Shown here: positions 238 through 35,044 of the stretch, piece after piece | How the letters are laid out: each line of letters starts with the position of its first letter | Numbering within the stretch: position 1 is the stretch's first letter | Source of the DNA: Tremella fuciformis | Taxonomy: Eukaryota > Basidiomycota > Tremellomycetes > Tremellales > Tremellaceae | Direction of reading: 5' to 3' | Assembly: GCA_032768795.1 (NCBI GenBank) | Contig: CP136492.1 | Coordinates: forward strand, 1 to 64,000 | Length of the DNA: 64,000 bases | The notes under the pieces: model-generated | What the model was told of the DNA's origin: nothing | Databases searched by the model: none | Seen by the model: the letters and a program-made list of their open reading frames with translations, nothing else | Position numbers and translations under genes: made by a program

Positions 238-715
238 TTCGGAGGGATTAACTCCGCCAGTTTCGCTCCGATCCGGGAATGGGTTAGAGATTCTTAATCA
301 GCTCGTCAAATAGAGTATAGTAGCACCCTTCACATCACAAAAATAATTTCACTCACAACCAGCAAACTCCAAGGGTCCCCCCTTGGGCCATATGAGCTCC
401 AAGGGTCCCCCCTTGGACCGTTTTACATGAAGTCAGGGATGCATGCGAGAGTCATCCCAGATATATTTGGGACCATATTAGGCTACTTACTTCGACAATC
501 AACTCAATATTCCAATTACTGACCGCGTCACAGCCAACCAAAGTCAAATACCCAGCCAACTTTGGATGCCCGTAAATCCGTCAGTTTTTACCCGATCGGG
601 AAGATCATTACATTTACGAATAGCTCTTTTGTCGAACTTTTTGAATCCAAAAAAAAATTTCAAAAAATCTCGATGCGCGAGAAAGTCCCCCCCCCAGGAC
701 CTGCCTGTAACCCCC
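238..715 (+). mobile_element. Telomere-attached element, copy 1 (3' fragment only)
   Basis: This is the last ~475 bp of the element seen in full at 7170-9821. Its left end lies inside the last hairpin-bearing repeat unit (TCGGAGGGATTAAC), directly after the telomere. Its right end is the constant terminus GACCTGCCTGTAACCCC. By eye it matches 9332-9806 without a visible difference, so it belongs to the same subfamily as copies 5 and 6. The right terminus abuts satellite DNA with only a single telomere unit between. A translated frame across it (562-939) is not a credible gene. Confidence 0.85.
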
Positions 716-1003
716 GTGGACAAGGGGCCCAAGTACTCCCACGAGCTCGTGGAAAGAGCCAAGTACTCCAAGAGTACTCCCACGAGGAGGGCCCAAGTAC
801 TCCCACGACGTCGTGGAAAGGGCCAAGTACTCCCACGAGTTCGTGGAGGGGGGTCCAAGTACTCCCACGAGTTCGTGGAGGGGGGTCCAAGTACTCCCAC
901 GAGTTCGTGGAGGGGGTCCAAGTACTCCCACGAATTTGAAGGGGGGGTCCAAGTACTGAGTACTTGGGGGGGTCCAAGTACTGCAGAATATTGTTAGGAC
1001 GTA
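716..1003. repeat. Palindrome-rich satellite, block 1
   Basis: Tandem ~31-bp units of the form GGTCCAAGTACTCCCACGA then GTTCGTGGAGG. Each carries the near-palindrome CCACGAGTTCGTGG, and CCAAGTAC/GTACTTGG arms recur. The block closes with GCAGAATATTGTTAGGA, which also closes every block in 2022-3018. Long frames on both strands arise only because the unit length leaves them open; they are not genes. Confidence 0.9.
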
Positions 1004-1170
1004 GACCAGACCCCGTGGATCTCGTGGACAGTCGTGGATCCCGTGGAACCTGGCTGCCCTCATGGAACTTAGCCGCCCTCGTGGACAAGGGCTGGCGCTC
1101 GTGGACAAGGGTGGATCCCGTGGAAAAAGGCTGGCCCTCGTGGACAAGGCTTGCTCCCAGAGTATAAGAG
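1004..1170. repeat. CTCGTGGAC minisatellite
   Basis: Degenerate tandem units built on CTCGTGGACAAGGG and GGATCCCGTGGA. The CTCGTGG core is the same as one arm of the neighbouring satellite palindrome, so the two arrays probably share an origin. No gene is visible. Confidence 0.75.
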
Positions 1171-1621
1171 CATTCAATTACGTTCCCTCCCACCCCTAAC
1201 CTGCCTAAACCCCTAACCCTCCTAAGGTCGGGCCGGTGGCTCATGCGCCCTGGTGGTCCTAAGCGGTGACTCAAGCGCCCTGATGGCCCTAAGCGCTGGC
1301 TATGAATGCTGTCGGGGAATGAGACCTCCAGTGAGGAATGAAGGAGCAGTGTTGGCTGGGAGATGGGGCGCTCTACAACAGGGAGACGGGGATATGGCAG
1401 TGACCAAGGCAAGATGGAGCAAGCCGAAGGGGACAAGACGTGCTATGCGGCTTCATTCAGCCAAGGAGGCCAATGCAAGGGGACATTGACGGGAGGACAT
1501 GGTGGATAAGGTGGCTACCGTGGAGCAGGAGGGCGCTTGTGGATCACGTGGAGCTGGAGGGAACTCGTGGGTACCGTGGACCCAGAGGACGCTCGTGGAT
1601 AAGCTGCCTTTTGGACCTCTA
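1171..1621. other. Subtelomeric spacer without a gene
   Basis: Contains degenerate telomere-like sequence at about 1190-1225 (CCCCTAACC, CCCCTAACCCTCC) and a short direct repeat (GCGCCCTG.TGG.CCTAAGCG) at about 1245-1300. More CTCGTGG/CCGTGGA motifs occur at 1500-1600. The short open frames here have no recognisable domain and are not called. Confidence 0.6.
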
Positions 1622-2021
1622 CTTTCCCACGAATCCATCTATCTCACTCACGCTGACGGCTGCAGCAGATCTGACTGCACAGGGCAAAAGAGCAGCGTCT
1701 CTTCTCTTAGAATCCAAAGAGACAGACCCCACTATCTCAAAATCGGACCCCACTATCGCAGCTCAAAGACAGGGGGGGCCCACTATCGTGGGGATTTTCC
1801 TCGTGGAAGTCCGGATTCCTCGTGGAAGTCCTCTTTTTCAAAAATACACTTTTCCACGCGTCCATTTATCTCACTCACCATGACAGCTGCAGCAGATCTG
1901 ACTGCGCAGGATGAAAGAGCAGCGTCTGTTGTCTCAGAATCCAAAGAGACAGACCCCACTATCACAAAATCGGACCCCACTATTGCATCTCAAAGACAGG
2001 GGGGGCCCACTATCGTGGGTT
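1622..2021. repeat. Tandem duplication of a ~228-bp unit
   Basis: Two diverged copies start near 1622 and 1850. Both contain GCAGCAGATCTGACTGC, then AATCCAAAGAGACAGACCCC, then CCCCACTAT motifs and CAAAGACAGGGGGG. Each ends with CCCACTATCGTGGG. The second copy runs into a CCCACTAT/ATAGTGGG inverted repeat at about 2026-2050. No coding function is recognised. Confidence 0.75.
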
Positions 2022-3018
2022 TTAGGTGATAGTGGGGGGGGCCCACTATCCGCAGAATACTGTTAGGACGCGGCCGTGGACATTGCAGATCTCGTGGATA
2101 GAGGTCGGCCTCGTGGGCAAAGGTGGATCCCGTGGACAAGGGGCCCAAGTACTCCCACGAGCTCGTGGAAAGAGCCAAGTACTCCAAGAGTACTCCCACG
2201 AGGAGGGCCCAAGTACTCCCACGACGTCGTGGAAAGGGCCAAGTACTCCCACGAGTTCGTGGAGGGGGGTCCAAGTACTCCCACGAGTTCGTGGAGGGGG
2301 GTCCAAGTACTCCCACGAGTTCGTGGAGGGGGTCCAAGTACTCCCACGAATTTGAAGGGGGGGTCCAAGTACTGAGTACTTGGGGGGGTCCAAGTACTGC
2401 AGAATATTGTTAGGAGGGCCCAAGTACTCCCACGACGTCGTGGAAAGGGCCAAGTACTCCCACGAGTTCGTGGAGGGGGGTCCAAGTACTCCCACGAGTT
2501 CGTGGAGGGGGGTCCAAGTACTCCCATGAGTTCGTGGAGGGGGTCCAAGTACTCCCACGAATTTGAAGGGGGGGTCCAAGTACTGAGTACTTGGGGGGGT
2601 CCAAGTACTGAAGAATATTGTTAGGAGGGCCCAAGTACTCCCACGACGTCGTGGAAAGGGCCAAGTACTCCCACGAGTTCGTGGAGGGGGGTCCAAGTAC
2701 TCCCACGAGTTCGTGGAGGGGGGTCCAAGTACTCCCACGAGTTCGTGGAGGGGGGTCCAAGTACTCCCACGAGTTCGTGGAGGGGGTCCAAGTACTCCCA
2801 CGAATTTGAAGGGGGGGTCCAAGTACTGAGTACTTGGGGGGGTCCAAGTACTGCAGAATATTGTTAGGAGGGCCCAAGTACTCCCACGACGTCGTGGAAA
2901 GGGCCAAGTACTCCCACGAGTTCGTGGAGGGGGGTCCAAGTACTCCCACGAATTTGAAGGGGGGGTCCAAGTACTGAGTACTTGGGGGGGTCCAAGTACT
3001 GCAGAATATTGTTAGGAT
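2022..3018. repeat. Palindrome-rich satellite, higher-order array
   Basis: The 31-bp satellite unit of 716-1003 is repeated here in four larger blocks. They end at about 2415, 2626, 2872 and 3017, each closed by GCAGAATATTGTTAGGA or a one-base variant. Block lengths differ by the number of 31-bp units, as expected from unequal exchange. Each block also holds the inverted pair CCAAGTAC-TGA-GTACTTGG. It follows the CTCGTGGA minisatellite near 2090-2150. Confidence 0.9.
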
Positions 3019-3043
3019 GCCGTGTCGGTTTCCTGACAGTACT

Positions 3044-3684
3044 GGACTTTCGAAGGGATTAACTCCGCCAGTTTCGCTCCGACCAGGTAATGGGTTAGAG
3101 ATTCAGAATCAGCTTGTTAAATAGAGTATAGTACCAACCATTAGACTTGCAGAATAAATTTATCCAGCGCCGGAAAAAGCTCCAAGGGTCCCCCTTGGGC
3201 ACACATACTGGACTTCCGGGGGGAGTTGCTCCGTCAGTTCCGCTCCGATCTGGAAATGGGTTAGAGATTCTTAATCAGCTCGTCAAATAGAGTATAGTAG
3301 CACCCTTCACAACACAAGAATAATTTCATGCACAACCAGCCAATTCCAAGGGTCCCCCCTTGGGCCACATGAGCTCCAAGGGTCCCCCCTTGGACCGTTT
3401 TACGTCAAGTTGGGGATGCATGCGAGAGTCATCCCACATATATCTAGGACCATATTAGGCTACTCTCTTCGACAATCAACTCAATATCCCAATTATTGAT
3501 CGCGTCACAGCCAATCAAAGTCAAATACCCAGTCCACTTTGGATGCCCGTAAATCCGTCAGTTTTTACCCGATCGGGAAGATCATTACATTTACGAATAG
3601 CTTTTTTGTCGAACTTTTTGAATCTAAAAAAAAAGTTTCGAAAATCTCGATGCGCGAGAAAGTCCCCCCCCCAGGACCTGCCTG
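3044..3684 (+). mobile_element. Telomere-attached element, copy 2 (3' fragment, second subfamily)
   Basis: About 640 bp. It begins near ACTGGACTTTCGAAGGG, in the hairpin repeat region, and ends with the constant terminus CCAGGACCTGCCTGTAACCC. Several substitutions against copies 1, 5 and 6 (GTCAAGTTGG for GAAGTCAGGG, TATCTAGGACC for TATTTGGGACC) are shared with copies 3 and 4 and define a second subfamily. Its left side abuts satellite DNA, not telomere repeats. Confidence 0.8.
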
Positions 3685-3714
3685 TAACCCCCTAACCCCT
3701 AACCCCCTAACCCT
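3685..3714. repeat. Interstitial telomere tract
   Basis: TAACCCCC units (one with four C) between copies 2 and 3. The last unit is shortened to CTAACCCT at the left end of copy 3. Confidence 0.93.
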
Positions 3715-4209
3715 CCCCCTTGGGCACACATACTGGACTTCCGGGGGGAGTTGCTCCGTCAGTTCCGCTCCGATCTGGAAATGGGTTAGAGATTCTTAAT
3801 CAGCTCGTCAAATAGAGTATAGTAGCACCCTTCACAACACAAGAATAATTTCATGCACAACCAGCCAATTCCAAGGGTCCCCCCTTGGGCCACATGAGCT
3901 CCAAGGGTCCCCCCTTGGACCGTTTTACGTCAAGTTGGGGATGCATGCGAGAGTCATCCCACATATATCTAGGACCATATTAGGCTACTCTCTTCGACAA
4001 TCAACTCAATATCCCAATTATTGATCGCGTCACAGCCAATCAAAGTCAAATACCCAGTCCACTTTGGATGCCCGTAAATCCGTCAGTTTTTACCCGATCG
4101 GGAAGATCATTACATTTACGAATAGCTTTTTTGTCGAACTTTTTGAATCTAAAAAAAAAGTTTCGAAAATCTCGATGCGCGAGAAAGTCCCCCCCCCAGG
4201 ACCTGCCTG
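3715..4209 (+). mobile_element. Telomere-attached element, copy 3 (truncated)
   Basis: Starts abruptly inside the hairpin (CCCCTTGGGCACACATACTGG) and ends with the constant terminus. It has the same left breakpoint and sequence as copy 4, so this ~540-bp unit (fragment plus telomere tract) was probably duplicated as a block after one truncation event. Confidence 0.85.
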
Positions 4210-4255
4210 TAACCCCCTAACCCCCTAACCCCCTAACCCCTAACCCCCTAACCCT
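4210..4255. repeat. Interstitial telomere tract
   Basis: Five CCCCCTAA-type units between copies 3 and 4, ending in CTAACCCT. It is longer than the matching tract at 3685-3714, so tract length has changed since the duplication. Confidence 0.93.
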
Positions 4256-4750
4256 CCCCCTTGGGCACACATACTGGACTTCCGGGGGGAGTTGCTCCGT
4301 CAGTTCCGCTCCGATCTGGAAATGGGTTAGAGATTCTTAATCAGCTCGTCAAATAGAGTATAGTAGCACCCTTCACAACACAAGAATAATTTCATGCACA
4401 ACCAGCCAATTCCAAGGGTCCCCCCTTGGGCCACATGAGCTCCAAGGGTCCCCCCTTGGACCGTTTTACGTCAAGTTGGGGATGCATGCGAGAGTCATCC
4501 CACATATATCTAGGACCATATTAGGCTACTCTCTTCGACAATCAACTCAATATCCCAATTATTGATCGCGTCACAGCCAATCAAAGTCAAATACCCAGTC
4601 CACTTTGGATGCCCGTAAATCCGTCAGTTTTTACCCGATCGGGAAGATCATTACATTTACGAATAGCTTTTTTGTCGAACTTTTTGAATCTAAAAAAAAA
4701 GTTTCGAAAATCTCGATGCGCGAGAAAGTCCCCCCCCCAGGACCTGCCTG
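4256..4750 (+). mobile_element. Telomere-attached element, copy 4 (truncated)
   Basis: Same breakpoint and essentially the same sequence as copy 3. It ends in the constant terminus GACCTGCCTG followed by TAACCCCC. Confidence 0.85.
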
Positions 4751-4773
4751 TAACCCCCTAACCCCCTAACCCT
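4751..4773. repeat. Interstitial telomere tract
   Basis: Short CCCCCTAA tract ending CTAACCCT, joined directly to the middle of an OTU-protease frame at 4774. Confidence 0.93.
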
Positions 4774-5193
4774 CGACTTGACGGTCAGCCGGTATTCTAC
4801 CGTACGAACTGGATCAAGGGAGATGGTAATTGCATGTTCGCCGCAATAGTCAAAGCACTTGGAATACCACGCTTGACACATCTCGGAGCAAGGCGGGCAG
4901 CAGTGGCTTATGCTCGGAAGTTCCAAGATGACTTCTTCCCATTTCTAGAGAGTCAAAGCGAGTCAATGGGTGCATACCTCAGGCGTATGGGCAAGGCGGG
5001 GACATGGGGTGACGACTTGATGCTTAAGGCCTTGAGTGGGGCATACAATGTCAAGATCAGAGTCTACAAGCGGCATAATGATGGCAGCCATCAGTGGTAT
5101 GAGATAGGAGAAGGTGAGGATAGTATTGGCCTTTACTTAGCAAGTGAGCATTATGAGAACTTAGTAACTGCAGATGAGTTGTTTGGTAGATAG
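4774..5193 (+). pseudogene. OTU-like cysteine protease, 5'-truncated copy
   Basis: The frame enters at the telomere junction and ends at TAG 5191-5193. It keeps the whole OTU core: the nucleophile block GDGNCMF, the TWGDDLMLKAL block and the C-terminal HYENL histidine block. It lacks the ~80 N-terminal residues present in the copy at 7193. No promoter or start codon of its own is evident; the first ATG lies inside the catalytic block, after the Cys. It therefore most likely cannot make an active enzyme. Confidence 0.75.
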
Positions 5194-5857
5194 ATGCATT
5201 TGACTCTCTCAGTTCTCAAGTAAGTGAGAAATGAGTCAGAGATTCGGAACCAGCTTGTCAAACTGTGTATAGTAATGGGCATTAGACTTGCGAAATAAAT
5301 TTATCCAACTGCGGAAAAAGCTCCAAGGGTCCCCCCTTGGGCAGTTGTGCCGGGTTACGGGTGGGGATAGCTCCGCCAGTTTTGCTCCAATTAGAAAACA
5401 AGTGAGAGATTTGGAATCAGCTCGTCAAATTGTGTATGCTAATGGGCATTAGACTTGCCAAATAATTTTATCCAGCTGCGGAAAAAGCTCCAAGGGTCCC
5501 CCCTTGGGCAGTCAAGCTTGGTTACGTGTGGGGATAGCTCGGCCAGTTTCGCTCCGTTCAGAAAACGGGTGAGAGATTCAGAATCAGCTCTTTGAATAGA
5601 GTATAGTACCAACCATTAGACTTGCAGAATAAATTTATCCAGCGCCGGAAAAAGCTGCAAGGGTCCCCCCTTGCGCAGGTGTGCTCGGTTACGGGAGGGG
5701 GTAGCTCCGCCAGTTCTGCTCCGATCGGAAAACGGGTGAGAGATTCAGAATCAGCTCGCCAAACTGAGTATAGTAGTAAGCATTACAATCGAAGAAGACA
5801 GTCATCAAGGGGGGCAAAAGTCAATAAGCCATTTGACAGACATAAGATCCAAAAAGT

Positions 5858-5952
5858 GTACCCCAACCAGGAATCGAACCTAGTCACAGCCAAATTAGGG
5901 CAGACAGCACCCTACAGCGGGCCGAAATGACACTAACCACTGTGTCAAACCA
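5858..5952 (-). other. tRNA-like sequence in element copy 5
   Basis: On the minus strand there is a perfect B-box (GGTTCGATTCC) in a 5-bp T-stem/7-nt loop (CTAGG, TTCGATT, CCTGG). A D-arm (GACAC, AGTGGTTA, GTGTC) carries an A-box-like TGGTTAGTGTC. The stretch between the two arms is too long for a plain tRNA, and the acceptor ends pair only partly. It is either an intron-bearing or decayed tRNA, or a tRNA-derived internal Pol III promoter. The anticodon cannot be assigned. Confidence 0.4.
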
Positions 5953-7148
5953 GAGGGGTGAAGGTCTGCTGAGTTTTACTTGCCTATATTGGGTTACACA
6001 TAATACATGCTAAGTGGCACATAGCTCCGCCACTTTTGCTCCGATCAGTAAATGGGTTAGAGATTCTTAATCAGCTTGTCAAATAGTGTATAGTGCCGAC
6101 CATTAGACTCGCAGAATAAATTTATCCAGCGCCGGAAAAAGCTGCAATGGTCCCCCCTTGGGCAGACGTACTGGTCTTTCGGAGGGATTAACTCCGCCAG
6201 TTCTGCTCTGATCTGGTAATGGGTTAGAGATTCTTGATCAGCTCGTCAAATAGTGTATAGTACCAACCTTTAGACTTGCAGAATAAATTTATCCAGCACC
6301 GGAAAAAGCTACAAGGGTCCCCCCTTGGGCAGTCGAGCTGGGTTACGGGTGGGGTTAGCTCGGCCAGTTTTGCTCCGATTGGAAAACGAGTGAGAGATTT
6401 GGAATCAGCTCGTCAAACTGAGTATAGTACCAACCATTAGACTTGCAGAATAATTTTATCCAGCACCGGAAAAAGCTACAAGGGTCCCCCCTTGGGCAGT
6501 CGAGCTGGGTTACGGGTGGGGATAGCTCGGCCAGTTTTGCTCCGATCGGAAAACGAGTGAGAGATTTGGAATCAGCTCGTCAAACTGAGTATAGTACCAA
6601 CCATTAGACTTGCAGAATAATTTTATCCAGCACCGGAAAAAGCTACAAGGGTCCCCCCTTGGGCAGACGTACTGGTCTTTCGGAGGGATTAACTCCGCCA
6701 GTTTCGCTCCGATCCGGGAATGGGTTAGAGATTCTTAATCAGCTCGTCAAATAGAGTATAGTAGCACCCTTCACATCACAAAAATAATTTCACTCACAAC
6801 CAGCAAACTCCAAGGGTCCCCCCTTGGGCCATATGAGCTCCAAGGGTCCCCCCTTGGACCGTTTTACATGAAGTCAGGGATGCATGCGAGAGTCATCCCA
6901 GATATATTTGGGACCATATTAGGCTACTTACTTCGACAATCAACTCAATATTCCAATTACTGACCGCGTCACAGCCAACCAAAGTCAAATACCCAGCCAA
7001 CTTTGGATGCCCGTAAATCCGTCAGTTTTTACCCGATCGGGAAGATCATTACATTTACGAATAGCTCTTTTGTCGAACTTTTTGAATCCAAAAAAAAATT
7101 TCAAAAAATCTCGATGCGCGAGAAAGTCCCCCCCCCAGGACCTGCCTG

Positions 7149-7169
7149 TAACCCCTAACCCCTAACCCT
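7149..7169. repeat. Interstitial telomere tract
   Basis: Two four-C units (TAACCCC) followed by CTAACCCT, between copies 5 and 6. Confidence 0.92.
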
Positions 7170-7192
7170 ACGATTCATCTCACCGATATCAA

Positions 7193-7846
7193 ATGAACAA
7201 CAAGGAGTATATGGCTCTTCGATGTGGCAATAAGCATTGTCGGCACAAAATCAACCGGAGCCAAGCTATGCGATGGTTTGCCCAGCTTGTCACCGATGGC
7301 ATAGTACCACGAGCCGAAGTAGGCTATTCGGAGCCGGCAGCATTACCTCAAGTCTCAACCCAGCAGGAAGCGACTCAGCCATTTGTCCAAGGACGATTCG
7401 AATTGCCAAGTCGTAATCAGCTTACTCGACTTGACGGTCAGCCGGTATTCTACCGTACGAACTGGATCAAGGGAGATGGTAATTGCATGTTCGCCGCAAT
7501 AGTCAAAGCACTTGGAATACCACGCTTGACACATCTCGGAGCAAGGCGGGCAGCAGTGGCTTATGCTCGGAAGTTCCAAGATGACTTCTTCCCATTTCTA
7601 GAGAGTCAAAGCGAGTCAATGGGTGCATACCTCAGGCGTATGGGCAAGGCGGGGACATGGGGTGACGACTTGATGCTTAAGGCCTTGAGTGGGGCATACA
7701 ATGTCAAGATCAGAGTCTACAAGCGGCATAATGATGGCAGCCATCAGTGGTATGAGATAGGAGAAGGTGAGGATAGTATTGGCCTTTACTTAGCAAGTGA
7801 GCATTATGAGAACTTAGTAACTGCAGATGAGTTGTTTGGTAGATAG
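7193..7846 (+). CDS. OTU-like cysteine protease (C-terminal part of a larger element protein)
   Basis: 217 codons from ATG 7193, but the frame stays open back to the truncation point (about 7 more codons), so the true N-terminus is lost. Residues ~10-25 contain CGNKHCRH, a possible zinc-binding cluster. The OTU core is at ~95-217: GDGNCMF with the nucleophile Cys, TWGDDLMLKAL (the usual WGG-EL-AL position), an IRVY strand, and IGLYL then HYENLV supplying the His. OTU domains are deubiquitinases or viral/transposon proteases. They occur in some Helitrons and in Dualen/RandI-type LINEs. The product would be part of a selfish-element polyprotein; expression of this fragment is uncertain. Confidence 0.75.
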   Translation: MNNKEYMALRCGNKHCRHKINRSQAMRWFAQLVTDGIVPRAEVGYSEPAALPQVSTQQEATQPFVQGRFELPSRNQLTRLDGQPVFYRTNWIKGDGNCMFAAIVKALGIPRLTHLGARRAAVAYARKFQDDFFPFLESQSESMGAYLRRMGKAGTWGDDLMLKALSGAYNVKIRVYKRHNDGSHQWYEIGEGEDSIGLYLASEHYENLVTADELFGR

Positions 7847-9530
7847 ATGCATTTGACTCTCTCAGTTCTCAAGTAAGTGAGAAATGAGTCAGAGATTCGG
7901 AACCAGCTTGTCAAACTGTGTATAGTAATGGGCATTAGACTTGCGAAATAAATTTATCCAACTGCGGAAAAAGCTCCAAGGGTCCCCCCTTGGGCAGTTG
8001 TGCCGGGTTACGGGTGGGGATAGCTCCGCCAGTTTTGCTCCAATTAGAAAACAAGTGAGAGATTTGGAATCAGCTCGTCAAATTGTGTATGCTAATGGGC
8101 ATTAGACTTGCCAAATAATTTTATCCAGCTGCGGAAAAAGCTCCAAGGGTCCCCCCTTGGGCAGTCAAGCTTGGTTACGTGTGGGGATAGCTCGGCCAGT
8201 TTCGCTCCGTTCAGAAAACGGGTGAGAGATTCAGAATCAGCTCTTTGAATAGAGTATAGTACCAACCATTAGACTTGCAGAATAAATTTATCCAGCGCCG
8301 GAAAAAGCTGCAAGGGTCCCCCCTTGCGCAGGTGTGCTCGGTTACGGGAGGGGGTAGCTCCGCCAGTTCTGCTCCGATCGGAAAACGGGTGAGAGATTCA
8401 GAATCAGCTCGCCAAACTGAGTATAGTAGTAAGCATTACAATCGAAGAAGACAGTCATCAAGGGGGGCAAAAGTCAATAAGCCATTTGACAGACATAAGA
8501 TCCAAAAAGTGTACCCCAACCAGGAATCGAACCTAGTCACAGCCAAATTAGGGCAGACAGCACCCTACAGCGGGCCGAAATGACACTAACCACTGTGTCA
8601 AACCAGAGGGGTGAAGGTCTGCTGAGTTTTACTTGCCTATATTGGGTTACACATAATACATGCTAAGTGGCACATAGCTCCGCCACTTTTGCTCCGATCA
8701 GTAAATGGGTTAGAGATTCTTAATCAGCTTGTCAAATAGTGTATAGTGCCGACCATTAGACTCGCAGAATAAATTTATCCAGCGCCGGAAAAAGCTGCAA
8801 TGGTCCCCCCTTGGGCAGACGTACTGGTCTTTCGGAGGGATTAACTCCGCCAGTTCTGCTCTGATCTGGTAATGGGTTAGAGATTCTTGATCAGCTCGTC
8901 AAATAGTGTATAGTACCAACCTTTAGACTTGCAGAATAAATTTATCCAGCACCGGAAAAAGCTACAAGGGTCCCCCCTTGGGCAGTCGAGCTGGGTTACG
9001 GGTGGGGTTAGCTCGGCCAGTTTTGCTCCGATTGGAAAACGAGTGAGAGATTTGGAATCAGCTCGTCAAACTGAGTATAGTACCAACCATTAGACTTGCA
9101 GAATAATTTTATCCAGCACCGGAAAAAGCTACAAGGGTCCCCCCTTGGGCAGTCGAGCTGGGTTACGGGTGGGGATAGCTCGGCCAGTTTTGCTCCGATC
9201 GGAAAACGAGTGAGAGATTTGGAATCAGCTCGTCAAACTGAGTATAGTACCAACCATTAGACTTGCAGAATAATTTTATCCAGCACCGGAAAAAGCTACA
9301 AGGGTCCCCCCTTGGGCAGACGTACTGGTCTTTCGGAGGGATTAACTCCGCCAGTTTCGCTCCGATCCGGGAATGGGTTAGAGATTCTTAATCAGCTCGT
9401 CAAATAGAGTATAGTAGCACCCTTCACATCACAAAAATAATTTCACTCACAACCAGCAAACTCCAAGGGTCCCCCCTTGGGCCATATGAGCTCCAAGGGT
9501 CCCCCCTTGGACCGTTTTACATGAAGTCAG
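7847..9530. repeat. Hairpin-bearing ~165-bp repeat array in the element 3' region
   Basis: Eight or nine diverged units. Each contains GCTCCG.CAGTTTTGCTCC, then GAGAGATT..GAATCAGCTCGTCAAA, then AGTATAGTA, then CATTAGACTTGC, and ends with the hairpin CCAAGGG-TCCC-CCCTTGG. One unit (near 8308) has GCAAGGG paired with CCCTTGC, a compensatory change that keeps the stem. The same array lies at 5191-6874 in copy 5. A 102-codon frame across one unit (8275-8583) ignores this structure and is not called. Confidence 0.8.
8514..8608 (-). other. tRNA-like sequence in element copy 6
   Basis: Second copy of the sequence at 5858-5952, with the same B-box GGTTCGATTCC and D-arm on the minus strand, opposite in direction to the OTU frame. 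It may be a Pol III promoter remnant captured by the element. Confidence 0.4.
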
Positions 9531-9821
9531 GGATGCATGCGAGAGTCATCCCAGATATATTTGGGACCATATTAGGCTACTTACTTCGACAATCAACTCA
9601 ATATTCCAATTACTGACCGCGTCACAGCCAACCAAAGTCAAATACCCAGCCAACTTTGGATGCCCGTAAATCCGTCAGTTTTTACCCGATCGGGAAGATC
9701 ATTACATTTACGAATAGCTCTTTTGTCGAACTTTTTGAATCCAAAAAAAAATTTCAAAAAATCTCGATGCGCGAGAAAGTCCCCCCCCCAGGACCTGCCT
9801 GTAACCCCCAGGACCTGCCTG

Positions 9822-9852
9822 TAACCCCCTAACCCCCTAACCCCCTAACCCT
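9822..9852. repeat. Innermost interstitial telomere tract
   Basis: Three CCCCCTAA units ending CTAACCCT, joined to non-repetitive sequence at 9853. It marks an older chromosome end onto which the element array was later added. Confidence 0.93.
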
Positions 9853-11246
9853 GGCAATGCACCGTTAACGGTCCGTTGCAATCAAGTGTACGGGACGCCA
9901 AAACACGTGACGGCCACATGGCAGGCATGGACGGACCGTTCAGCAACCGTTGACCCATGGTGCCGGCCCGTTGTCCGCCATGTACTTATGCATGAGGGAA
10001 GAGACCAAATAAAGACGGGCCGTCTATGTCTATGAGACCAAAAGCACCGACAAGAGACGAACCGACAACGGACCCACAGACAGCGCACAAGAAGGTAGAG
10101 GGTCAGACGGACGGTCCGTTAAGTGTGGTTGACGAACGAACACGGCTGGCCGTGATACACGCAACGGGCGCACTTCTGACGAGGTCCTTCAATGACGCAC
10201 TTGTGCGGAGTGGCACCAAGCGAGCAACGGTAACAACGGGCCTCGGCATCATGACCACGGAGCAGCATCTTGTGGTAACGGGCATGGCGACGGATCCGCT
10301 GCTCATTAGCACATCCTCGTTGAAGGCCGTCCACGGCCCGTTCTTACCGCATCAATGATCTCAGCGGCCCGTCTTTCCTCGCGTTCGAAGCGCTCTGCCT
10401 CCGCTTTCAGAATGGCCTCACTGACAGCCTTCAAGATCTTTCGAAACTCGGCGGCTGACGGGCCGCCCACGACCGTGGACGGGACTTGACGGCGATTCAT
10501 GATTGTGTTGACCCTGGTTGCAAAGAGAGTCGGACCGCTAGCAGTTGAGGTGACTGAGACCACATCCGTGGTAGAGGCAGCACTTGTCGTCTGGACGGAC
10601 GGTGCCGGGTCGTCAACGTTGACAGTTGCATCTGAGTCGACCTCATCCTGCTCAATGACGGTTGTCGCGACTTCTGACGGCTGGTACTCGGAGGATGACG
10701 TCCCGTCATCAATAGCACTTGTTGCAGTGGACCACGGGTTGTCGGACTGGTTGTCCATGTTGTCGATGGTAGACGGACCGTGATCAGCAACATTGGGCTG
10801 TGCATTCATTGCTTGCTGCACCGTTAGCAATGACAGAAACTGCAAACGGACCGACCTCTTCAACCCATTGCCAGAAGCTTGGAGTGAGACCATAAGCAGG
10901 AGTCGACATTGCAAGGTTGACGGACCGTTGACGGGCGGGCTGACGGACGTCTTACCCAAAACGGTACGGTCTTTTATGGCAGAAACATTGCTCTTAGAAG
11001 CATCTTAGGAGATAACGGCCGCCGCATGGAAGATAACGGCCGCCGGGTGAGAGATAACGGCCGCCGACAAACAATACAGAGACGGAAAACGGGGCAAGAC
11101 AGTTTGATAACTCAAAACCCCGCCCGCCCGCACCCTGGTACCTGCCCGTTCACGTGCAATAACGACAATGAACGGAGCGTTGGCAATCAGATAAACGTAG
11201 TTATCGGAGTAAGAACTAAGTGCGGCACCCGGGACAGGTGCCGCCC
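9853..11246. other. Decayed LTR-element interior with a repeated 9-bp palindrome
   Basis: Lies between the old telomere and an LTR. ACGGACCGT/ACGGTCCGT (palindromic apart from the central base) and partial forms recur at about 9873, 9931, 10107, 10770, 10847 and 10918. AGATAACGGCCGCCG is present three times in tandem at 11008-11067. A polypurine tract at its right edge suggests it is the 3' interior of a plus-strand LTR element. No pol domain is readable. Confidence 0.5.
10306..10893 (-). CDS. Hypothetical acidic protein within LTR-element remnant
   Basis: 195 codons from an ATG at 10893-10891. The middle is rich in Asp, Ser, Thr and Val and has low complexity. The C-terminal ~50 residues are a charged probable helix with an ERFEREERRAAEII core. 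No family is recognised. It is antisense to the direction implied by the neighbouring LTR and polypurine tract, so it is either a chance frame or the start of a gag of an element facing the other way. GC-rich codons and low complexity favour caution. Confidence 0.25.
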   Translation of the reverse strand: MVSLQASGNGLKRSVRLQFLSLLTVQQAMNAQPNVADHGPSTIDNMDNQSDNPWSTATSAIDDGTSSSEYQPSEVATTVIEQDEVDSDATVNVDDPAPSVQTTSAASTTDVVSVTSTASGPTLFATRVNTIMNRRQVPSTVVGGPSAAEFRKILKAVSEAILKAEAERFEREERRAAEIIDAVRTGRGRPSTRMC

Positions 11247-15703: not shown

Positions 15704-17441
15704 CTACACCCGGTATACGACTACCTCTGCAACTTTCGTCCTCGCAGGGATGAAGGAGTGAATTGGACATGCTCCGAGGTCTGGTCGGCTCCAAGGCATG
15801 TAAGCCGCCCTCCCATCTCCGCTCACTTCGTCCCCGTTCAATGTCCTCAGTGTGAACCAATGGTCCAGCTCATCGATGTCCTTCTCCTTCACGTGAGCGA
15901 TGCCGCTGTACGCCGTACCTAGCAAAGTCGATGTGAACGTCGCAGAGAAGCCTTCGCCGATGAGACAGAACTGGTCGGGGGAGGTCTGAATGACGAGACC
16001 ATACGCGGGGGACGGATGTCCCGGAACAGGCGTTCGCTGTATCACAATCTTCCACGTGCCCATTGTCGACGAACACGGCGCAGCGGGATCGTGAGAGCCC
16101 TTTTCGTAACGATCGAAGTGGAAACCGAACATTGCCTGGCCGGCCTGACGAGCCGCAAGGATGAGAGGCGACACACGACGTAGCAGGCTATAGTGATTGG
16201 CGAGACTGCTGTCTGCGGGATCTTCCTGATCAAAACCAAATGGCGAGACACCAAGCGCGCCGTGGGTCCCAAACGCGGACCATGTGCGAAGCATGCCGTC
16301 TTCTTCTATTCGCTGTTCCGGGATAAGTAGCGGTTTACCATGACGTCCGTACGAACGACAATGATGATCGTAATCGTCAAAGTAGATATCGGGGGCAATC
16401 GTGAACAGACTCGGAGTGAGCAGGTGCCACATGTCGAGCACCGTGTCGCTCGGACCCCCGGAAGGATACTCTCCCGGCTGACTCCCGGCTGCGAGCTGAG
16501 CGGTGCCCATACCTGTCTCGAGCTCGGGACCCAAGCTTCGCAGCCATGCGTTGGTGTAGAGCGGTAGGGGATAGACTTCTCTGCCCGCGGCCGCGACCGT
16601 CTCGACGTGCCGCGCCGTGTGATACGTCATGAATAGCTCGTCGGTCCTCGCACTCGTTCCAAACACCTGCTCCCATGATCTTCGAGAGGTAGGCGGATCT
16701 CGAAAGAACCGCTCGAGAGCCGTCATGAACAGGGGATTGAAAGAGTCCCGTCCATCATTCAAAGCTTTTACGAGGCTGTCGGGAACCTTTTCCTCGCGAA
16801 AAGCCTGACTGGCTGCGGGCGATCTGTCACGAGAGTCCCCCAACATGCCGCATTCATTCTCGACTTGCACCATGATCACCGTACGATGGACCGAATCGAT
16901 CTGCTTGAGATGCTTCATGAGCTCGGCAAAAGCTCTCGCATCGAATGCGGTGATTCGAGAGCCGTGCAAGGACATGCAGTTTATCATTCGAAGGCTCCCA
17001 TCCGCAGTTGAATGCACCTGGCACTTTGGAAACCGCTGGACGTCTCGCTTCACCCACCCTGGTACGTAGTTGGACTGGCCTACAGGGCGTCAGGACCATC
17101 CGAGCGCGTAAGTTGGGCGTACCGTTCTTCATTGCCCCAAACCACAACAGCGCCAGACGTATTCCGTGGAAACGCGCGTCATCGATAACCTCGTCGAGGG
17201 CTGCAAAGTTGTACACGCCTTCGTCAGGCTCCACGATGTCCCAACCTACGGCTCCAAAAAGGGTGTTCACATTGCAAGCCACCGCTTTGGGCCATATTTC
17301 CTTCATGTATCGGGGTGACGAAAGAGAAGAGTTGTTGAGCTCGGCGCCCCTAATGAGGTAAGGGGCTCCATCGACGAGCAATTGATGGTGACCGCTTGGC
17401 AACAGCTCCACACGGGGAATGTCTTCCGGACGCTGGGGCAT
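15704..17441 (-). CDS. GH35-like beta-galactosidase (DUF5597-type)
   Basis: 564 aa, with one 43-nt intron (17080-17122) whose removal joins the WFGAMKNG and QSNYVPGWVKRD segments. The start MPQRPEDIPRVELL leads into LVDGAPYLIRGAELNNS, typical of the family. Catalytic residues fit GH35/GH42-like clan A: acid/base Glu in QVENECGMLGDSRD, nucleophile Glu in PLLIPEQ. There is no signal peptide, so it is intracellular. It would hydrolyse a galactoside or related glycoside taken up by the cell. It is encoded in the same direction as the GH1 gene upstream (395 bp apart) and the epimerase downstream. Confidence 0.85.
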
Positions 17442-26665: not shown

Positions 26666-28806
26666 CTACGAAGTCTTGACCAAGAGGTTCCGCATGCGTC
26701 CTTTAAAACCTTTGCCCAGCGTTGTGAGAGGAGCGGTGCTGTAGATGGGCCCCCAGTTCCAAGCCCAGTAGGCCTCTTTCGTGTTGAACTGGGTCGTGTT
26801 GGTCGCGTTGTTAATCTGGACATAGGTGTGCACCGAGTCACTCGATACCTTGAGAGTGGTCCAGGTGTTTACCGGCAGGCTGTAGTTGAGATGGTGCGCG
26901 TATCCCTCGGTGATAAGGGTGAGGTTATGCACCGTCCCGTTTCCGGTGGTGAGGCTGGTTTCGTTGTTGGAGATGAGATTGGCGATGTCGCTCGTGAGAG
27001 GGTAGATGTCGAATGAGTACGAATAGTTCAGTCCCTTGCGGTAAAGGGGAGTCTCGATGGTGCAGTTGCCGTCAAAAGTGACGACCGAGTTGTTGAGGGC
27101 GCAACCGTGATTGATACCGTGATAGCCGTTGCCAGAAAGATCTGTAACCTTCGTGCCATTGGTCGACACAAAGTTGTACTGCAGGATGACATCGGTCTTG
27201 GTCGGGATCGACTGATCCAGGTGCATCGCCGGGATGGAGTCGTGAAGAGCTTGGAAGACGGAATCATATTCGGATTCGGTGAGGTTGCCGTTCCATTGCT
27301 TGTCGGCAAGTGCAGGCAATGCGTCCCGCCAGGCAAAGTACGTCTGCCAAGTGGTGACGCTCCACGGGTCATCGTTCCAGACAGTGTGAATGTTACCCAA
27401 TAACAGCGGTTCGTTTGGTGCCGCGTTGTTCGTCACATTGGTGTTACTAAACACCCAGGGATAGAAGGGTTCGCCGTTCGGACCGCCCTTGAAGATGAAC
27501 GTCTTGTTGAGGACCGTCGGGAAATAGGCGTTTTCGAACGTATCGACGTACGTCAACAGGTCAGAGTTGATGACCTTGTAACCGTTCTTGATGTAATCGA
27601 AAAGCGGATTGTCAGAGTAAGACGCCCAGTGGTGAATGGTGACGTTGGTGGTGATATTGTGGTAGGTGGATTTCGGAGGGTAGGTACCCCAGATCCTAGT
27701 ATTCTTCTGAGATGTGTTGTGGATATAGCCGTTCAGGGTATTGACATAGTCGTTATACAAGTCAACGTCATCGGCTGTGTATTCGTCGGCACCCATGTGC
27801 ACCGTCTTGGTGTGGAACCAGCTCAGAAACGTGTTCCAGATGGATTCGACTACAGGGAGGGTCTGTGGGTTATTCAGATCGAGCAGGGTCGCATCGGAAG
27901 ATAGCGCCAGCTCGGGCCTCCAACGGGTGATGGCGAGAGAGTGCCCGGGGGTGTCGATCTCCGGTATGATGGTGACCCCACGGGCGGCGCACTGGCGCTG
28001 CATGTTGTCAAAGATGTCGTAAGTGTAAGATTCGTTCTTGCGATCGTCGAGACCGGCGACCGCCGAGTCGGTGGACAGAAGGCGAAACGCCGAGTTGTTG
28101 TTGGCATACCAGTCGCTGGGGTCGGAAAAGAGTGTCGTGCCGTCGTCGGATAGATGAAGATGAAGCTCGTTCTGCTTGAAGTAGCTCAGGTGAGCGCAGA
28201 TCTGGATGATGAAATCAGGCGGGAAATATTTGCGAGCGACATCCATCATTGCTCCACGGACCGACCAGCCCGGAGCATCCACGGCTGAGCCCAGCGGAAT
28301 CGAGGTGTTGCCCACAACGATCATTTGCATGAGGGTCCTCGTCCCCCACCAGGCGCCCAAGGAGCTCGCACCAGAGATGACCACCCCGTTCGACGTGACG
28401 TTGATTGTATAGCCTTCGGCGGTGAAGCGGCCGGCAACGTCATAGTAGTTGCCGTTTGGGTTGATGGTCAGGAAGATGGCGCCCGCTTTGGCGCTGCTGG
28501 CCTGCGATTTTGGGACTGACCGCGAGAGGGCCGAGGAGAGATCGCTTGAGAAAGTCGAGGCAAAGTCATCCAGTGTCGGAGGAACGAGTGTAAGCCCGGT
28601 TTGATCAACCCATGAGGCGTATTGTTGGTCGACCACAATGGTCGTGAGCTTGTCGACAGAGAGACTGCCTTGTTTCGAGGCGAAATTGATAGAGGGAACC
28701 GTCACCAAACGACCGGTGACTGAAACGTCATTACAATGCTACCCGTCCCAATAGATCACTCACCGGACCAGGCCAGATAGACCAAAAGGAACAGACGGAA
28801 AACCAT
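26666..28806 (-). CDS. Secreted GH20 beta-N-acetylhexosaminidase
   Basis: 698 aa. A 43-nt first exon encodes most of a signal peptide (MVFRLFLLVYLAWSVTG after splicing); the intron is 28720-28763. A GH20 N-terminal domain covers ~40-140. The catalytic barrel includes GWSVRGAMMDVARKYFP, the HLSDDG motif, EIDTPGHS, and the HMGADEY Asp-Glu pair that assists and protonates substrate cleavage. Many N-glycosylation sites (Asn-x-Ser/Thr) fit secretion. The C-terminal ~170 residues (from VTDLSGNGYHG) look like a concanavalin/LamG-type sandwich, probably for carbohydrate binding. It would remove GlcNAc or GalNAc ends from chitin oligomers or glycans. It is the only clearly secreted enzyme in this cluster. 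Confidence 0.92.
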
Positions 28807-29813: not shown

Positions 29814-30104
29814 TGTTAAACAAAAGTGACCGGCCAGTCGAGTGTCAAGGGCATTGATCGCCGTCTTGTAACACTCCCCCTCGAGAGATGCCCGTTGATA
29901 CTCTCGGAACCCGGAAAGCCACGTGTTCAACACCGTGCGCCTCCCCCTGCAGGCGGCATCCATGCGGGTGTGCGGATCGAACCCGCGCCTGTAACCTGCG
30001 CCTTCGTCTTCCACGCCCAAAGCGGAGACTTGGGACTTTTAATCTGTTAAACAAAAGTGACCGGCCAGTCGAGTGTCAAGGGCATTGATCGCCGTCTTGT
30101 AACA
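29814..30104 (-). mobile_element. 291-bp miniature LTR element (TRIM-like) nested in copia gag
   Basis: Two 60-bp LTRs (29814-29873 and 30045-30104), identical by eye, starting TGTTAAAC and ending CTTGTAACA as read on the plus strand. They flank only 171 bp, and the whole is bounded by a 5-bp target duplication AAGAA (29809-29813, 30105-30109). Read on the minus strand, the right LTR is followed by GATTAAAAGTCCCAAGTCTC (30044-30025), identical to the copia primer site. The left LTR is preceded by CGAGGGGGAG (29883-29874), identical to the copia polypurine tract. The interior has a Pol III B-box-like GGTTCGATCC and no coding capacity. It must have used proteins of an autonomous copia. Confidence 0.92.
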
Positions 30105-33100
30105 AAGAAGGACTGGGAGAGGTGGCAAGCCCGAGAGAGCAGGGCGCAGGCAATGTTGAAGGGGACGGTTTCGGAGGCCGTTCGGCTCGACATTGAAGAC
30201 CTGCTTGCTGCAGCCGATATGTGGCTGTATTGCGACAAGATGCACGAGGCCGATCTGCTCGAGAATCAGAGGATCGTGCACGCCCGCCTGTGGACGCTCG
30301 ATCTCAGAGGCGACGCCTCTGCGGACGAAATGAGCGCTCATGTAGAGACGTTTTCCAAGGCGATTTCGGACGGCAAGCGCGTCGGGATCGTCCTGAGCGA
30401 CACCGAGCGCGCTCAGAGGTTCCTCGCCACGATCCTGGACCCCGCTTTCAACATCGTAAGGGCTGAATTGGCCCCCATTGCCAAGGACAAGCAGTCCTGG
30501 GCCGTCGTGCTCTCAAAATACACTACCGAGATCGCGCGACGGCGGGCAAGGCCGCCTCAACGGCAAGGTAATGGAGGCGGCAAACCGCTCGCGATGGCTG
30601 TCGACCGCCGCCCTCGGTTCGAGAGAGACAAGACCAATGACGAATGTCGTCATTGTGGCAAGAAGGGCCATTGGGAGCGTGATTGTCGCAAGAAGGCCGC
30701 AGAGCTGCAGCGCGGTGGCCTGCAGGGCCGCGGCGGACGCCCTGCTCGGCAGAGAGGCGGCCGAGGCGAACGTAAGGGCGTCCAAGATCGCCAGGACGTC
30801 GCCGCAGCCGATAAGAGGATCACGATTCCTCCTAAAGCCGACTCGGGACTGCTCGCTGCAGCCCTGGAAGTTGACATGGATCCGTGGGCAGGCCTCACCG
30901 TTGCCGCCACCGAATGGGCCGAGCTCGATGACGACAGCGACGATCGCATCGTCTTTCCCGACCAGCTCGATGACCCGTGGTTCGAGAACGGGTCTGCAGA
31001 GTCTAGTAATGATGCTCTGTTCACCGCAGACACTCTGCAGGTCGAGTCAGAGGCCGTCGAGCCCGTCTGGGTCCTTGACAGCGGAGCTACCGACCACTTG
31101 ACACCGCACAGGTCGATCCTAAAGCGTGTCCGTCGGCTTGACAAGCCTCGAGTCTTTGGGCTAGCAAACGACACAGCCACAATGCAGGCTGTTGAGGTAG
31201 GCGAGATAGATCTTGTCCTGTCGTCTGGGCAACGCCTCACGCTCCGAGACGTCTACCACGTCCCGACAGCTCGAATCAGCCTCTGCTCCCTGTCAAGGCT
31301 GCTGCGATGGGGCTGGCGGGCCGATCTTAAGGGCGACGGCGGGACGCTCGAGCGACGGCAGGAAAGGCTAGCTCTGCGGAAGAGAGGATCGCTTTGGACC
31401 GTCCGGCTCGGGACGACACGACCGACGATTCTGCTCACAACTGCCGTCGACACGCGCTCGCCGCTAGAAGCTGAACATCAGCGTCTAGGTCATATAGGCG
31501 TCGAGCGGCTCAAAGAGCTGGGTAGGAAAGACCTACTCACCGAGCCCTGGCGAGCCTATAAAGACGACCCATTCGTTACCGCTGCATGTGAGGTATGCGC
31601 CCGCACTAAGATCACCAGGCCGCCGAAGGCTGGTGACGCCCCGCTGCTCAAAGGCGGCGGCGACGGTGTCGGCGTTGATGTCGACATTACCGGGCCATTT
31701 GAGACGTCTGTCGACGGGTGTGAGAACATGCTCGTAGCTATCGAGCGCTCGAGCAAGATCCTGGGCGTGGTCCCGATAGGTCGCAAGTCCGAGGCATTCA
31801 ACGCCTTGCAGCAGTTTATAGCCAAAATCGAGCGACAACTTGGAGATCGCGTCCGGGTCATCCGCAGCGACGGCGGAGGCGAGTTCGACAGCCTGGAGGC
31901 CCGCGCCTTCTATCAGTCAGCCGGGATACAGCATTACATGACCCCGCGCTACACGCCCGAGCTCAACGGGGCGGCTGAACGAACGATACGCACCATCAAA
32001 GACATGACAGCCGCGATGCTGGCCGACAGCCGTCTACCGCACGCCTATTGGTCTTTTGCGGCTCGATACGCAGCCGTGATCATCATGAAGCTGTCTGTAT
32101 CAGCACGGACGGGCTTATCGGCCTGGAGCGCGCTTACAGGGCGTGAGAGAGGCCTAGAGTCCGTCCTACGATTCGGGCAGAGATGCCATGCGCAGATCCC
32201 GTCTCAGATCCGCCGTAAGGCGTCTTTCACGCAAGAGCGCGGCGAGGCGTGTCGGATACTCGGTCAGAGTGAGACCCAGAGCGGCTGGACCGTGCAGCTT
32301 GACGCCACGGGTGAGATTGCCCATCGAAGAGACGTCAAAGTGCTCGAGATGTCGAAGGACGATGAGGCCGAATTTGGTCACGTGACCCAAAGCGACCAAG
32401 CAGAGCTCATTCCTGTTGGATCGATGGGAGGCAAGATCGCCAGTCATTCAGGCCAGGATGAGAATAGAGAGGATCTGGAGGTATCTGGCGATCAGCCGGA
32501 GTCGGGGCAAGCTCAGAAAAATGTCGCTGGGGTGGAGATCTCAGAGGAAGAGCTCACAATCAACGATCCCGCAGTTGCCGTTTCCAACACACCCGAGCAG
32601 CCTCGGGTCCCCCGTCCGTCCCGTCTTCCTGTAGCCACCAATCGATCCAGAATTCCCGTTGCCGAGCGCTGGACGTATGTACCCGTCGCGGCGACACCTC
32701 TGCCGCAACCCGTGGCCACGAATGAAGCCGGGCGGCCGATCCGAGACAAGAGACCGCCACCAAAGTTCGGTGCGATCGTTGAGCGGCTGCACAGCCCTTT
32801 CGCCTTCCTCTCCGCCAATGCAGCCGACGGCCCCGTAATGCCTGTGGATCCCAGAAACCTGGCCGAGGCGATGGCTAGCGGCGACAGAGCAGAATGGATC
32901 GCCGCCATGGAGAAAGAGATCTCGAACATTGAGAGTAAGGGGACGTGGCGCGAGGTAAAGTTGCCTGCAGATCGCAGAGCAGTCGGTTCGCGTTGGGTAT
33001 TCAAGGTCAAAACCGATGCGGATGGCAATGTCATCAAACACAAGGCTCGGCTCGTCGCACAGGGCTTCTCGCAGGTGCCGGGCGTCGACTTTGAAGAGAC

Positions 33101-34870: not shown

Positions 34871-34880
34871 CGAGGGGGAG
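34871..34880 (+). other. Polypurine tract of copia element
   Basis: CGAGGGGGAG immediately before the 3' LTR. The identical tract occurs in the nested mini-element. Confidence 0.85.
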
Positions 34881-35044
34881 TGTTGAACAATAGGCCCCGA
34901 GGACCCCGAGGACGCCTCATAGGGTCAGAATTGCCTCTTGCGGCCAAATGAGTAACCTTATGTAGATGGCTTGAGCAGAGCGACAGCTCATAAGTAGAGA
35001 ACTGCAGAGATGGACGAATGCATAGCTCTCATCATTGTGTAACA
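34881..35044 (+). repeat. 3' LTR of copia element
   Basis: 164 bp, matching 29068-29231. It overlaps the last six bases of the gag-pol frame and is followed by the target duplication CATTC. Confidence 0.95.

Follow-up and report, generated by a model that had tools for sequence, protein, structure and literature searches.

Truncated, telomere-joined copies of a predicted OTU-protease gene element at the chromosome ends of Tremella fuciformis

The left end of contig CP136492.1 (C3) of Tremella fuciformis begins with a telomere and continues, as far as about position 9851, with copies of a repeat that end alike on the centromeric side and break off at different places on the telomeric side. What does this repeat carry, and how does such an array arise at a chromosome end? 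We examined the window (C3:1–64000, the whole 64-kb stretch of DNA under study) together with the genome to which it belongs, which comprises 11 contigs (C1 to C11, with L and R for left and right ends), 28.1 Mb and 22 contig ends. The reading that we favour, with confidence only slightly better than even, is that of a subtelomeric gene element without a reverse transcriptase (RT), which sits in an array like those of the MoTeR and Cnl1 elements and whose copies are trimmed at the end, capped by telomerase and copied between ends as DNA. An earlier note on the window had proposed a telomere-attached element copied from RNA, an interpretation that is upheld in part.

The array at C3 and its counterparts at other ends

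The exact right terminus of the repeat occurs seven times in the window (at 694, 3671, 4196, 4737, 7135, 9788 and 9808) and was absent from 100 shuffles. Six of these termini close copies of the element, and the seventh (9808–9828) is a stub that consists of the terminus only. All six copies share the same 3' end, CCAGGACCTGCCTGTAACCCC, as the earlier note had stated. Their left breakpoints, expressed in coordinates of a 5289-bp reference unit from contig C9 (L041:257–5545), lie at 4812 for copy 1 (238–714), 4652 for copy 2 (3055–3692, which belongs to a 90% identical subfamily), 4787 for copies 3 (3715–4217) and 4 (4256–4758, with a short telomere tract ahead of it), 2905 for copy 5 (4772–7155) and 2643 for copy 6 (7164–9809), the last two falling inside the open reading frame (ORF). 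Five distinct truncations were thus measured where four or more had been claimed. The terminal telomere tract, (CCCCCTAA)n in the sequence and in the list of telomere runs, occupies 1–237, and a telomere-type tract directly follows four of the six copies. Copy 1, whose 3' end spans 694–714, is fused directly to non-telomeric sequence; copy 6 leads through poly-C into the stub (9806–9828), after which comes the innermost interstitial telomere tract (9825–9851). All these features lie on the plus strand. The description of 238–9852 as one array holds for the six copies and the stub, which end near 9851, and fails for 715–3017, which is a different repeat family (hereafter family 2, the OTU-element repeat being family 1).

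Across the genome, the 21-base exact terminus is present in 69 copies: the 34 in forward orientation are all near left ends, the 35 in reverse orientation all near right ends. In all 69 the 3' end points toward the centromere, the farthest copy lies about 20 kb from a contig end, and a reversed-pattern control yielded 0 matches genome-wide. A search with up to two mismatches returned 96 matches. For 93 of them the distance to an end is at most 21 kb, a zone that makes up 1.6% of the genome, and the 3' end faces the centromere; these 93 are spread over 21 of the 22 chromosome ends. The proposal of a chromosome-end element with a constant, centromere-facing 3' end is therefore borne out well beyond the window. 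Among the ends themselves, C6L and C8L open with 2,500 N, and the sequences of C1R and C5R have no terminal telomere.

Three 3' ends in the mismatch search are internal (C5:360772, C9:414130 and C11:75985). The one at C9 leads into about 1.5 telomere units, and the one at C11, which has two mismatches, may be a chance occurrence. A 348-bp family-1 fragment at C4:372 kb has lost both ends. The 3' end is not entirely constant, as subterminal pieces at C11L (1979–2582), C7R (213–432) and C5L (10898–11154) lack it. Two of the three, at C11L and C7R, break off within the element and connect through a few bases to a telomere tract some 250–265 bp long, which indicates that attachment without the 3' end also occurs. 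These interstitial tracts (C11L 2586–2849 and C7R 433–681) match terminal tracts in length and could reflect either end fusion or an assembly artefact.

The outer boundary varies widely. From 63 copies at 17 ends we obtained 29 left-end values and retained 24 after removal of 3709, 4483 and 4880 (cut by contig ends or Ns) and of 4154/4155 (internal repeats); with some of the remainder only 1–3 bp apart, they represent about 20 real breakpoints. The four longest end versions, at C2L, C9L, C10R and C11R, have four separate outer limits, each immediately beneath the terminal telomere, in agreement with the earlier suggestion that outer ends are lost and then re-capped. On the inner side, some 30 different sequences follow the 3' end, separated from it by anything from 0 to about 9 telomere units (from a junction table of 62 rows in which two window sites are counted twice).

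Several truncation junctions are shared between chromosomes: 2905 by C3L and C5L, 2643 by C3L and C2R, 4432 by C10L and C11L, and 4787 by C3L, C3R and C5L. C1L and C6R have in common a run of copies with the spacing 151-1747-2460-151-2460, and at C1L an 881-bp spacing appears four times in succession with the same telomere tract each time. The recurring truncations and the multi-copy run indicate that blocks of DNA are copied between ends.

The OTU gene and the search for mobility enzymes

The fullest copies extend about 5.3 to 6.0 kb inward from the telomere and are located at C9L (two identical 5289-bp units), C2L, C10R and C11R, the interiors of the latter two being known from search matches alone. 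In L041, promoter-like boxes (CCAAT at 445 and the TATA-like ATAAATA at 483) precede a predicted 5' intron (about 650–1330, with donor GTGAGT at 650 and branch site TTACTAAC at about 1293) and an ORF of 746 amino acids that runs from an ATG at 1342 to 3582. A region of repeats of about 167 bp follows and then the 3' end, where TAACCCC passes into telomere repeats. The predicted intron is retained in all six copies that span it (C9L twice, C10R, C11R, C2L and C9R), and C2L and C10R reach about 0.9–1.0 kb upstream of the TATA-like box. Both features argue against copying from a spliced mRNA, since such a copy would have neither.

The 746-residue protein is composed of an unclassified domain of about 480 residues (X) and a C-terminal OTU protease. 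Pfam assigns OTU to residues 622–719, with a sub-threshold Otubain match and nothing else. The ORF also contains GDGNC and HYENL, which we take to be the catalytic Cys and His motifs of OTU enzymes. By profile and catalytic residues, the product is predicted to be an OTU cysteine protease. The OTU frame singled out in the earlier note (7193–7846, plus strand, 217 amino acids, in copy 6) does match OTU (5.4e-13 in Pfam), but it begins at an internal Met and represents the 3' part of the 746-residue gene. Downstream of it, a 3' non-coding region with internal repeats of about 167 bp occupies 7850–9480 (approximate limits), followed by a non-repeat 3'-terminal part at 9481–9809 that ends in CCAGGACCTGCCTGTAACCCC, both on the plus strand and delimited by self-matches of the unit and by tiling. 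The coding part of copy 5, also on the plus strand, comprises the last 140 residues of the protein and runs to 5190, where it meets a stop.

Domain X found no convincing match in Pfam or among PDB sequences; four X-domain proteins searched against Pfam at E up to 10 produced one unrelated match (E 0.1), and a scan of viral contigs yielded no relative. Relatives of X that are about 40% identical, with or without OTU, occur at C1R, C2R, C7L, C10L, C10R and C10:21–24 kb and internally on C4 and C9. As judged from the coding sequences, purifying selection keeps the element protein: dN/dS over the ORF is 0.124 for C9L–C2L, 0.130 for C9L–C4 and 0.064 for C2L–C4, and that of the OTU part is 0.015 for C9L–C2L. 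Frames of 750 residues are open in five copies at the ends (C9L twice, C9R, C10R and C2L) and in the C4 copy, and the C11R frame is broken by a stop. Identity between units is uneven, at about 98–100% over the first 2 kb and about 75–90% over much of the 3' repeats, where the alignment register is uncertain. This unevenness makes exchange between copies likely. Over the last 560 bp or so, identity is flat at 0.91–0.97 among seven untruncated representatives.

Several candidate features did not survive scrutiny. A supposed module of some 310 conserved bp at the 3' end was withdrawn, as one of its six representatives is itself truncated there. Conservation of the 3' end across the X genes that are about 40% alike was dropped: at C10L the X-OTU gene and the terminus at C10:11249 are separated by the 3' end of a family-2 copy and by another family-1 3' region. 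A family-1 3' hairpin (CAGG..CCTG) was likewise abandoned; its pairing is lost in subfamilies that carry CCGGG, CCCAG or CCGGA where CCAGG would be needed. Finally, the 871-residue frame at C4:17 kb does not represent an extended protein, its extra N-terminus deriving from unrelated upstream sequence.

The earlier note had pointed to RT or Rep/helicase domains upstream of the OTU frame in the longest copy, and had named a full-length copy with terminal inverted repeats and a DDE transposase as evidence that would overturn it. Neither appeared: in Pfam, the full 746-residue ORF matches OTU only, with no RT, Rep, helicase or DDE transposase family among the matches (no systematic search for terminal inverted repeats was made). 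We also scanned 60 of the 252 non-redundant subtelomeric ORFs from 17 ends, mostly the longest, rescanned 20 singly and considered 25 of the 29 matching families. Within this set there was no RT of the long interspersed nuclear element (LINE) type and no helicase other than Helitron_like_N. RVT_1 matched two ORFs, a Ty3-type frame at C1L and a DIRS-like frame at C8L, and RVT_3 gave one match. The C8L frame (RVT_1 7e-9) combines RT, RNase H and a tyrosine-recombinase-like part, motifs by which it is presumably DIRS-like, and is not tied to the family-1 3' end. DIRS-like relics were observed at C8L (L040:4690–7126, minus), C3R (L047:1–1535, minus) and C11L (L044:~6114–6846, plus).

Genome-wide, 150 of 339 RVT_1 candidates were scored, two of them no more than 21 kb from an end. 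With a typed LINE consensus, nine matches were obtained at E up to 1e-3, every one of them internal; when the limit was relaxed to E 1 the number rose to 83, of which the one at an end (C1:14384, E 0.53) is the Ty3-type frame. Open frames of 2548–2596 residues with weak LINE-type RT similarity, unusually long for LINEs, are found at C2:984311, C3:1887011 and C2:2313747. A typed generic consensus for Penelope RT, run without a positive control, had 0 matches. For hammerhead ribozymes, 140 kb held no Rfam match at the gathering threshold, and in 64 kb, at E up to 0.5, the sole match was weak and unrelated. Telomerase reverse transcriptase (TERT) is encoded in the genome (Telomerase_RBD 3.0e-33). 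Helitron_like_N has 70 genome matches, which are dispersed and not telomeric. A subtelomeric ORF with this domain (L050:322–1803) had been considered as a sign of Helitron membership and was rejected, as so dispersed a family is uninformative about telomeres. Among the 70, 47 have equal scores in 1152-residue frames, which suggests a recent Helitron burst. At C4:264–372 kb, C5:360–479 kb and C9:414–417 kb, internal relatives of both repeat families and of the X gene have many RVT_1 matches in their vicinity; these clusters are possibly centromeres.

Origin and upkeep of the arrays

In the reading that we favour, outer DNA would be lost from a chromosome end and telomerase, whose gene is present, would heal the stump. 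A short or broken end may then anneal, through telomere repeats or a few bases, to telomere-type sequence next to the 3' end of an element on another chromosome, and everything outward of the annealing site would be copied by break-induced replication. Outward copying from the 3' end would yield a fixed inner boundary, a variable outer one and arrays with short telomere tracts. The element thus seems to behave like a Y' or telomere-linked gene element inside a MoTeR-style array, with no recognisable mobility enzyme. PMC7367193 and PMC8381367 describe how truncated ends of MoTeR arrays receive telomere repeats and how copying proceeds through interstitial telomeres, steps that they report from cultures and from TERT deletion strains.

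Several observations weigh against this reading. Ten classes of 3' junction contain no complete telomere unit and several share 0–3 nt only, junctions that homology-driven copying need not make. The telomere-seed test, which itself speaks for the reading, is weak: a seed of at least 1 nt is readable at 9 of 12 scored truncations versus 0.45 expected, with P 0.038 on the mean, and 12 of 17 junctions were scored, the other five having been dropped because the probe had no exact match (for MoTeR truncations, PMC7367193 reports seeds in 17 of 23). The promoter and the intron are sequence predictions. RT-bearing elements do occur in or near the subtelomeres, namely the Ty3-type element at C1L and the DIRS-like ones at C8L, C3R and C11L; the two near-end RVT_1 matches are the C1L frame and a frame of 1853 residues at C2:3618072, about 15 kb from the right end of C2. 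Of the two internal 3' ends that were read, the one at C5:360772 runs straight into non-telomeric sequence; the combination that the earlier note had named as speaking against a telomere-attached element, internal copies with fixed left ends and no telomere repeats, did not turn up in that form, and no fixed left end was seen. Lastly, the precise 3' end of family 2 at 15 sites implies that 3'-end-specific attachment occurs at these chromosome ends.

Some of these points would be accommodated if attachment took place at the level of RNA. The element would then be a non-autonomous telomere retroelement served by an RT in trans, as MoTeR2 is by MoTeR1. An RNA ending in ...UAACCCC would pair with the 3' G-overhang or a broken end and be reverse transcribed outward by the enzyme of a CRE/Cnl1-type LINE or an endonuclease-less Penelope-like element, and 5' truncation would reflect an early stop followed by a telomerase cap. 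The nearly constant 3' end on so many downstream sequences, with few or no telomere units between, supports this idea, as do the internal 3' ends on C5 and C9 and internal frames of 670–814 residues with LINE-type RT similarity (C5:1486034, C1:3396790 and C7:1040807, search matches only). Those frames are near the size of the ~2.5-kb CNL1 ORF, and CNL1 insertions are 5'-truncated to between 180 bp and 3.5 kb (PMC12810828). On the other side, the element has no RT, the 60 scanned end ORFs include none of the LINE type, and identical truncations and a multi-copy run recur between chromosomes, so the claim that copies are made from RNA finds no support. The Penelope-like version has no hammerhead match in its favour. 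Retention of the intron in every spanning copy is a further objection, weakened by the ability of Penelope-like elements to keep introns. RNA-level attachment stays in consideration, as a rather unlikely alternative, on account of the junctions without a telomere unit, the 3' ends at internal loci and the LINE-type RT matches elsewhere.

The selected protein may have a more active part. In an end-specific mobile class that lacks RT, transposase and helicase, the X-OTU protein and a defined 3' end would together enable colonisation of ends, alongside family 2 fusing at AGG, with the protein acting, for example, on ubiquitin signals that control telomere repair; we consider this whole proposal unlikely. 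At the opposite extreme, there would be no mobile element, and unequal exchange and healing in an ordinary subtelomeric gene family would have left the 3' end as an old subtelomere/telomere junction. A spliced-looking, functional gene under selection and blocks common to different ends suit this explanation, but the ~30 joined flanks, the junction classes without a full telomere unit and the internal 3' ends do not, and it appears quite improbable. Least credible is a rolling-circle, Helitron-like process, in which a Rep/helicase in trans peels off single-stranded DNA with a fixed 3' end that is captured at chromosome ends. Helitron_like_N is abundant; the family-2 hairpin, with compensatory stems of 9 bp followed by 16–17 nt, resembles a Helitron 3' end; with the first telomere unit assigned to the element, family 1 would end in CTAA, which fits CTRR; and according to PMC4067079, Helentrons carry OTU and Helitrons have a 16–20-nt palindrome about 11 bp from the 3' end. 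However, direct junctions of family 1 stop short of CTAA, family 2 ends in GTTAGG, a 5' TC end was not observed, neither Rep nor helicase is encoded by the element, and the Helitron_like_N matches are dispersed rather than telomeric. This makes such a process very improbable.

MoTeR1/MoTeR2 of Magnaporthe and FoTeR of Fusarium (CRE clade) likewise have 3' ends followed by telomere repeats, re-capped 5' truncations, tandem arrays with short interstitial telomeres, and identical truncations copied between ends (PMC7367193, PMC8381367 and PMC12857005). They encode an RT with a restriction-enzyme-like (REL) endonuclease, whereas here there are an OTU protein, a predicted intron and selection, and no RT was found in the element. 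Of the hallmarks of a CRE-type LINE, telomere-adjacent 3' ends, 5' truncations and location at ends are present and an RT domain in the element is absent. Cnl1, a Cryptococcus non-LTR (long terminal repeat) element, forms arrays at ends beside TAACCCCC-type telomeres with 5'-truncated insertions and has an RT ORF of ~2.5 kb (PMC12810828); no such ORF is present in our element. The window has the same telomere unit, and its likeness to Cryptococcus-type telomeres rests on this repeat unit alone. The array works like those of MoTeR and Cnl1, and we do not class it as a member because an RT was looked for in the element and not found.

Y' and telomere-linked helicase genes are also gene-bearing subterminal repeats with interstitial telomeres that spread by recombination. 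As with those genes, the present repeat is found at most ends (21 of 22), with telomere tracts between copies and open 750-residue frames at four ends. They differ in encoding a helicase, which the element ORF does not, and the outer ends of Y' elements are mostly fixed, whereas those of the element vary. HeT-A of Drosophila is telomere-attached with its 3' end inward and, like the element, has no RT of its own; here, by contrast, TERT is present, telomere repeats persist, and the protein is OTU rather than gag. Helentrons carry OTU cysteine-protease ORFs (PMC4067079), whereas the element has no Rep/helicase and showed none of the Helentron end signatures. We found no OTU-bearing telomere array described in the literature surveyed, which consisted mostly of papers open without subscription and available in part.

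The arrays are a useful new example for the study of DNA gain, loss and repair at chromosome ends. Fungal arrays of this shape, as described in the sources available, carry their own RT, and transposition is thus hard to separate from recombination. With a repeat at 21 of 22 ends in which no RT was found and whose longer copies encode a selected protease, it becomes a testable question whether break-induced copying alone can maintain an array. They also raise the question why a gene under selection should be located where the genome is least stable.

The second end-attached family and neighbouring features

Family 2 occupies 715–3017 of the window on the plus strand, where it has six 3' ends, each a hairpin followed by GCAGAATAYTGTTAGG. 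These ends (AGAATA..) start at 985, 2054, 2401, 2612 (a variant, GAAGAATA..), 2855 and 3003. The hairpin is a 9-bp stem with a short G-rich loop, and the stem takes at least three different self-complementary sequences (AGTACTTGG, GATAGTGGG and GTTACTGGG), that is, it covaries in a compensatory manner. At 0–1 mismatch the family-2 end has 37 matches genome-wide (control, 1). Thirty of these are no farther than about 20 kb from an end, and all thirty face the centromere; the other seven, which include copies at C4:264038, C5:473270 and C5:479375, are internal on C4 and C5. The ends examined contain 23 copies, whose 3' ends abut 15 different sequences without telomere repeats. The native context could be traced for seven of the 15 junctions and is AGG at six and GGG at one; three of the six AGG fusions sit within the family's own minisatellite. 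There is thus good evidence that family 2, which is noncoding in all sequence seen, has a defined and structured 3' end that fuses via short sequence identity. Its covarying hairpin and AGG fusions suggest that a distinct process, 3'-end-specific capture of broken ends, also operates in these subtelomeres.

Just inside the array, the window contains a cluster of ACGGNCCGT palindromes: all seven of its occurrences in the 64 kb fall within 1.1 kb (9868–10928), with 0.92 expected window-wide. Farther in, a gene for a glycosyl hydrolase of family 20 (26666–28708) and one for a DUF5597 protein (15704–17053), both on the minus strand, lie near the chromosome end, and a Ty1/copia element frame of 1609 residues spans 30057–34886.

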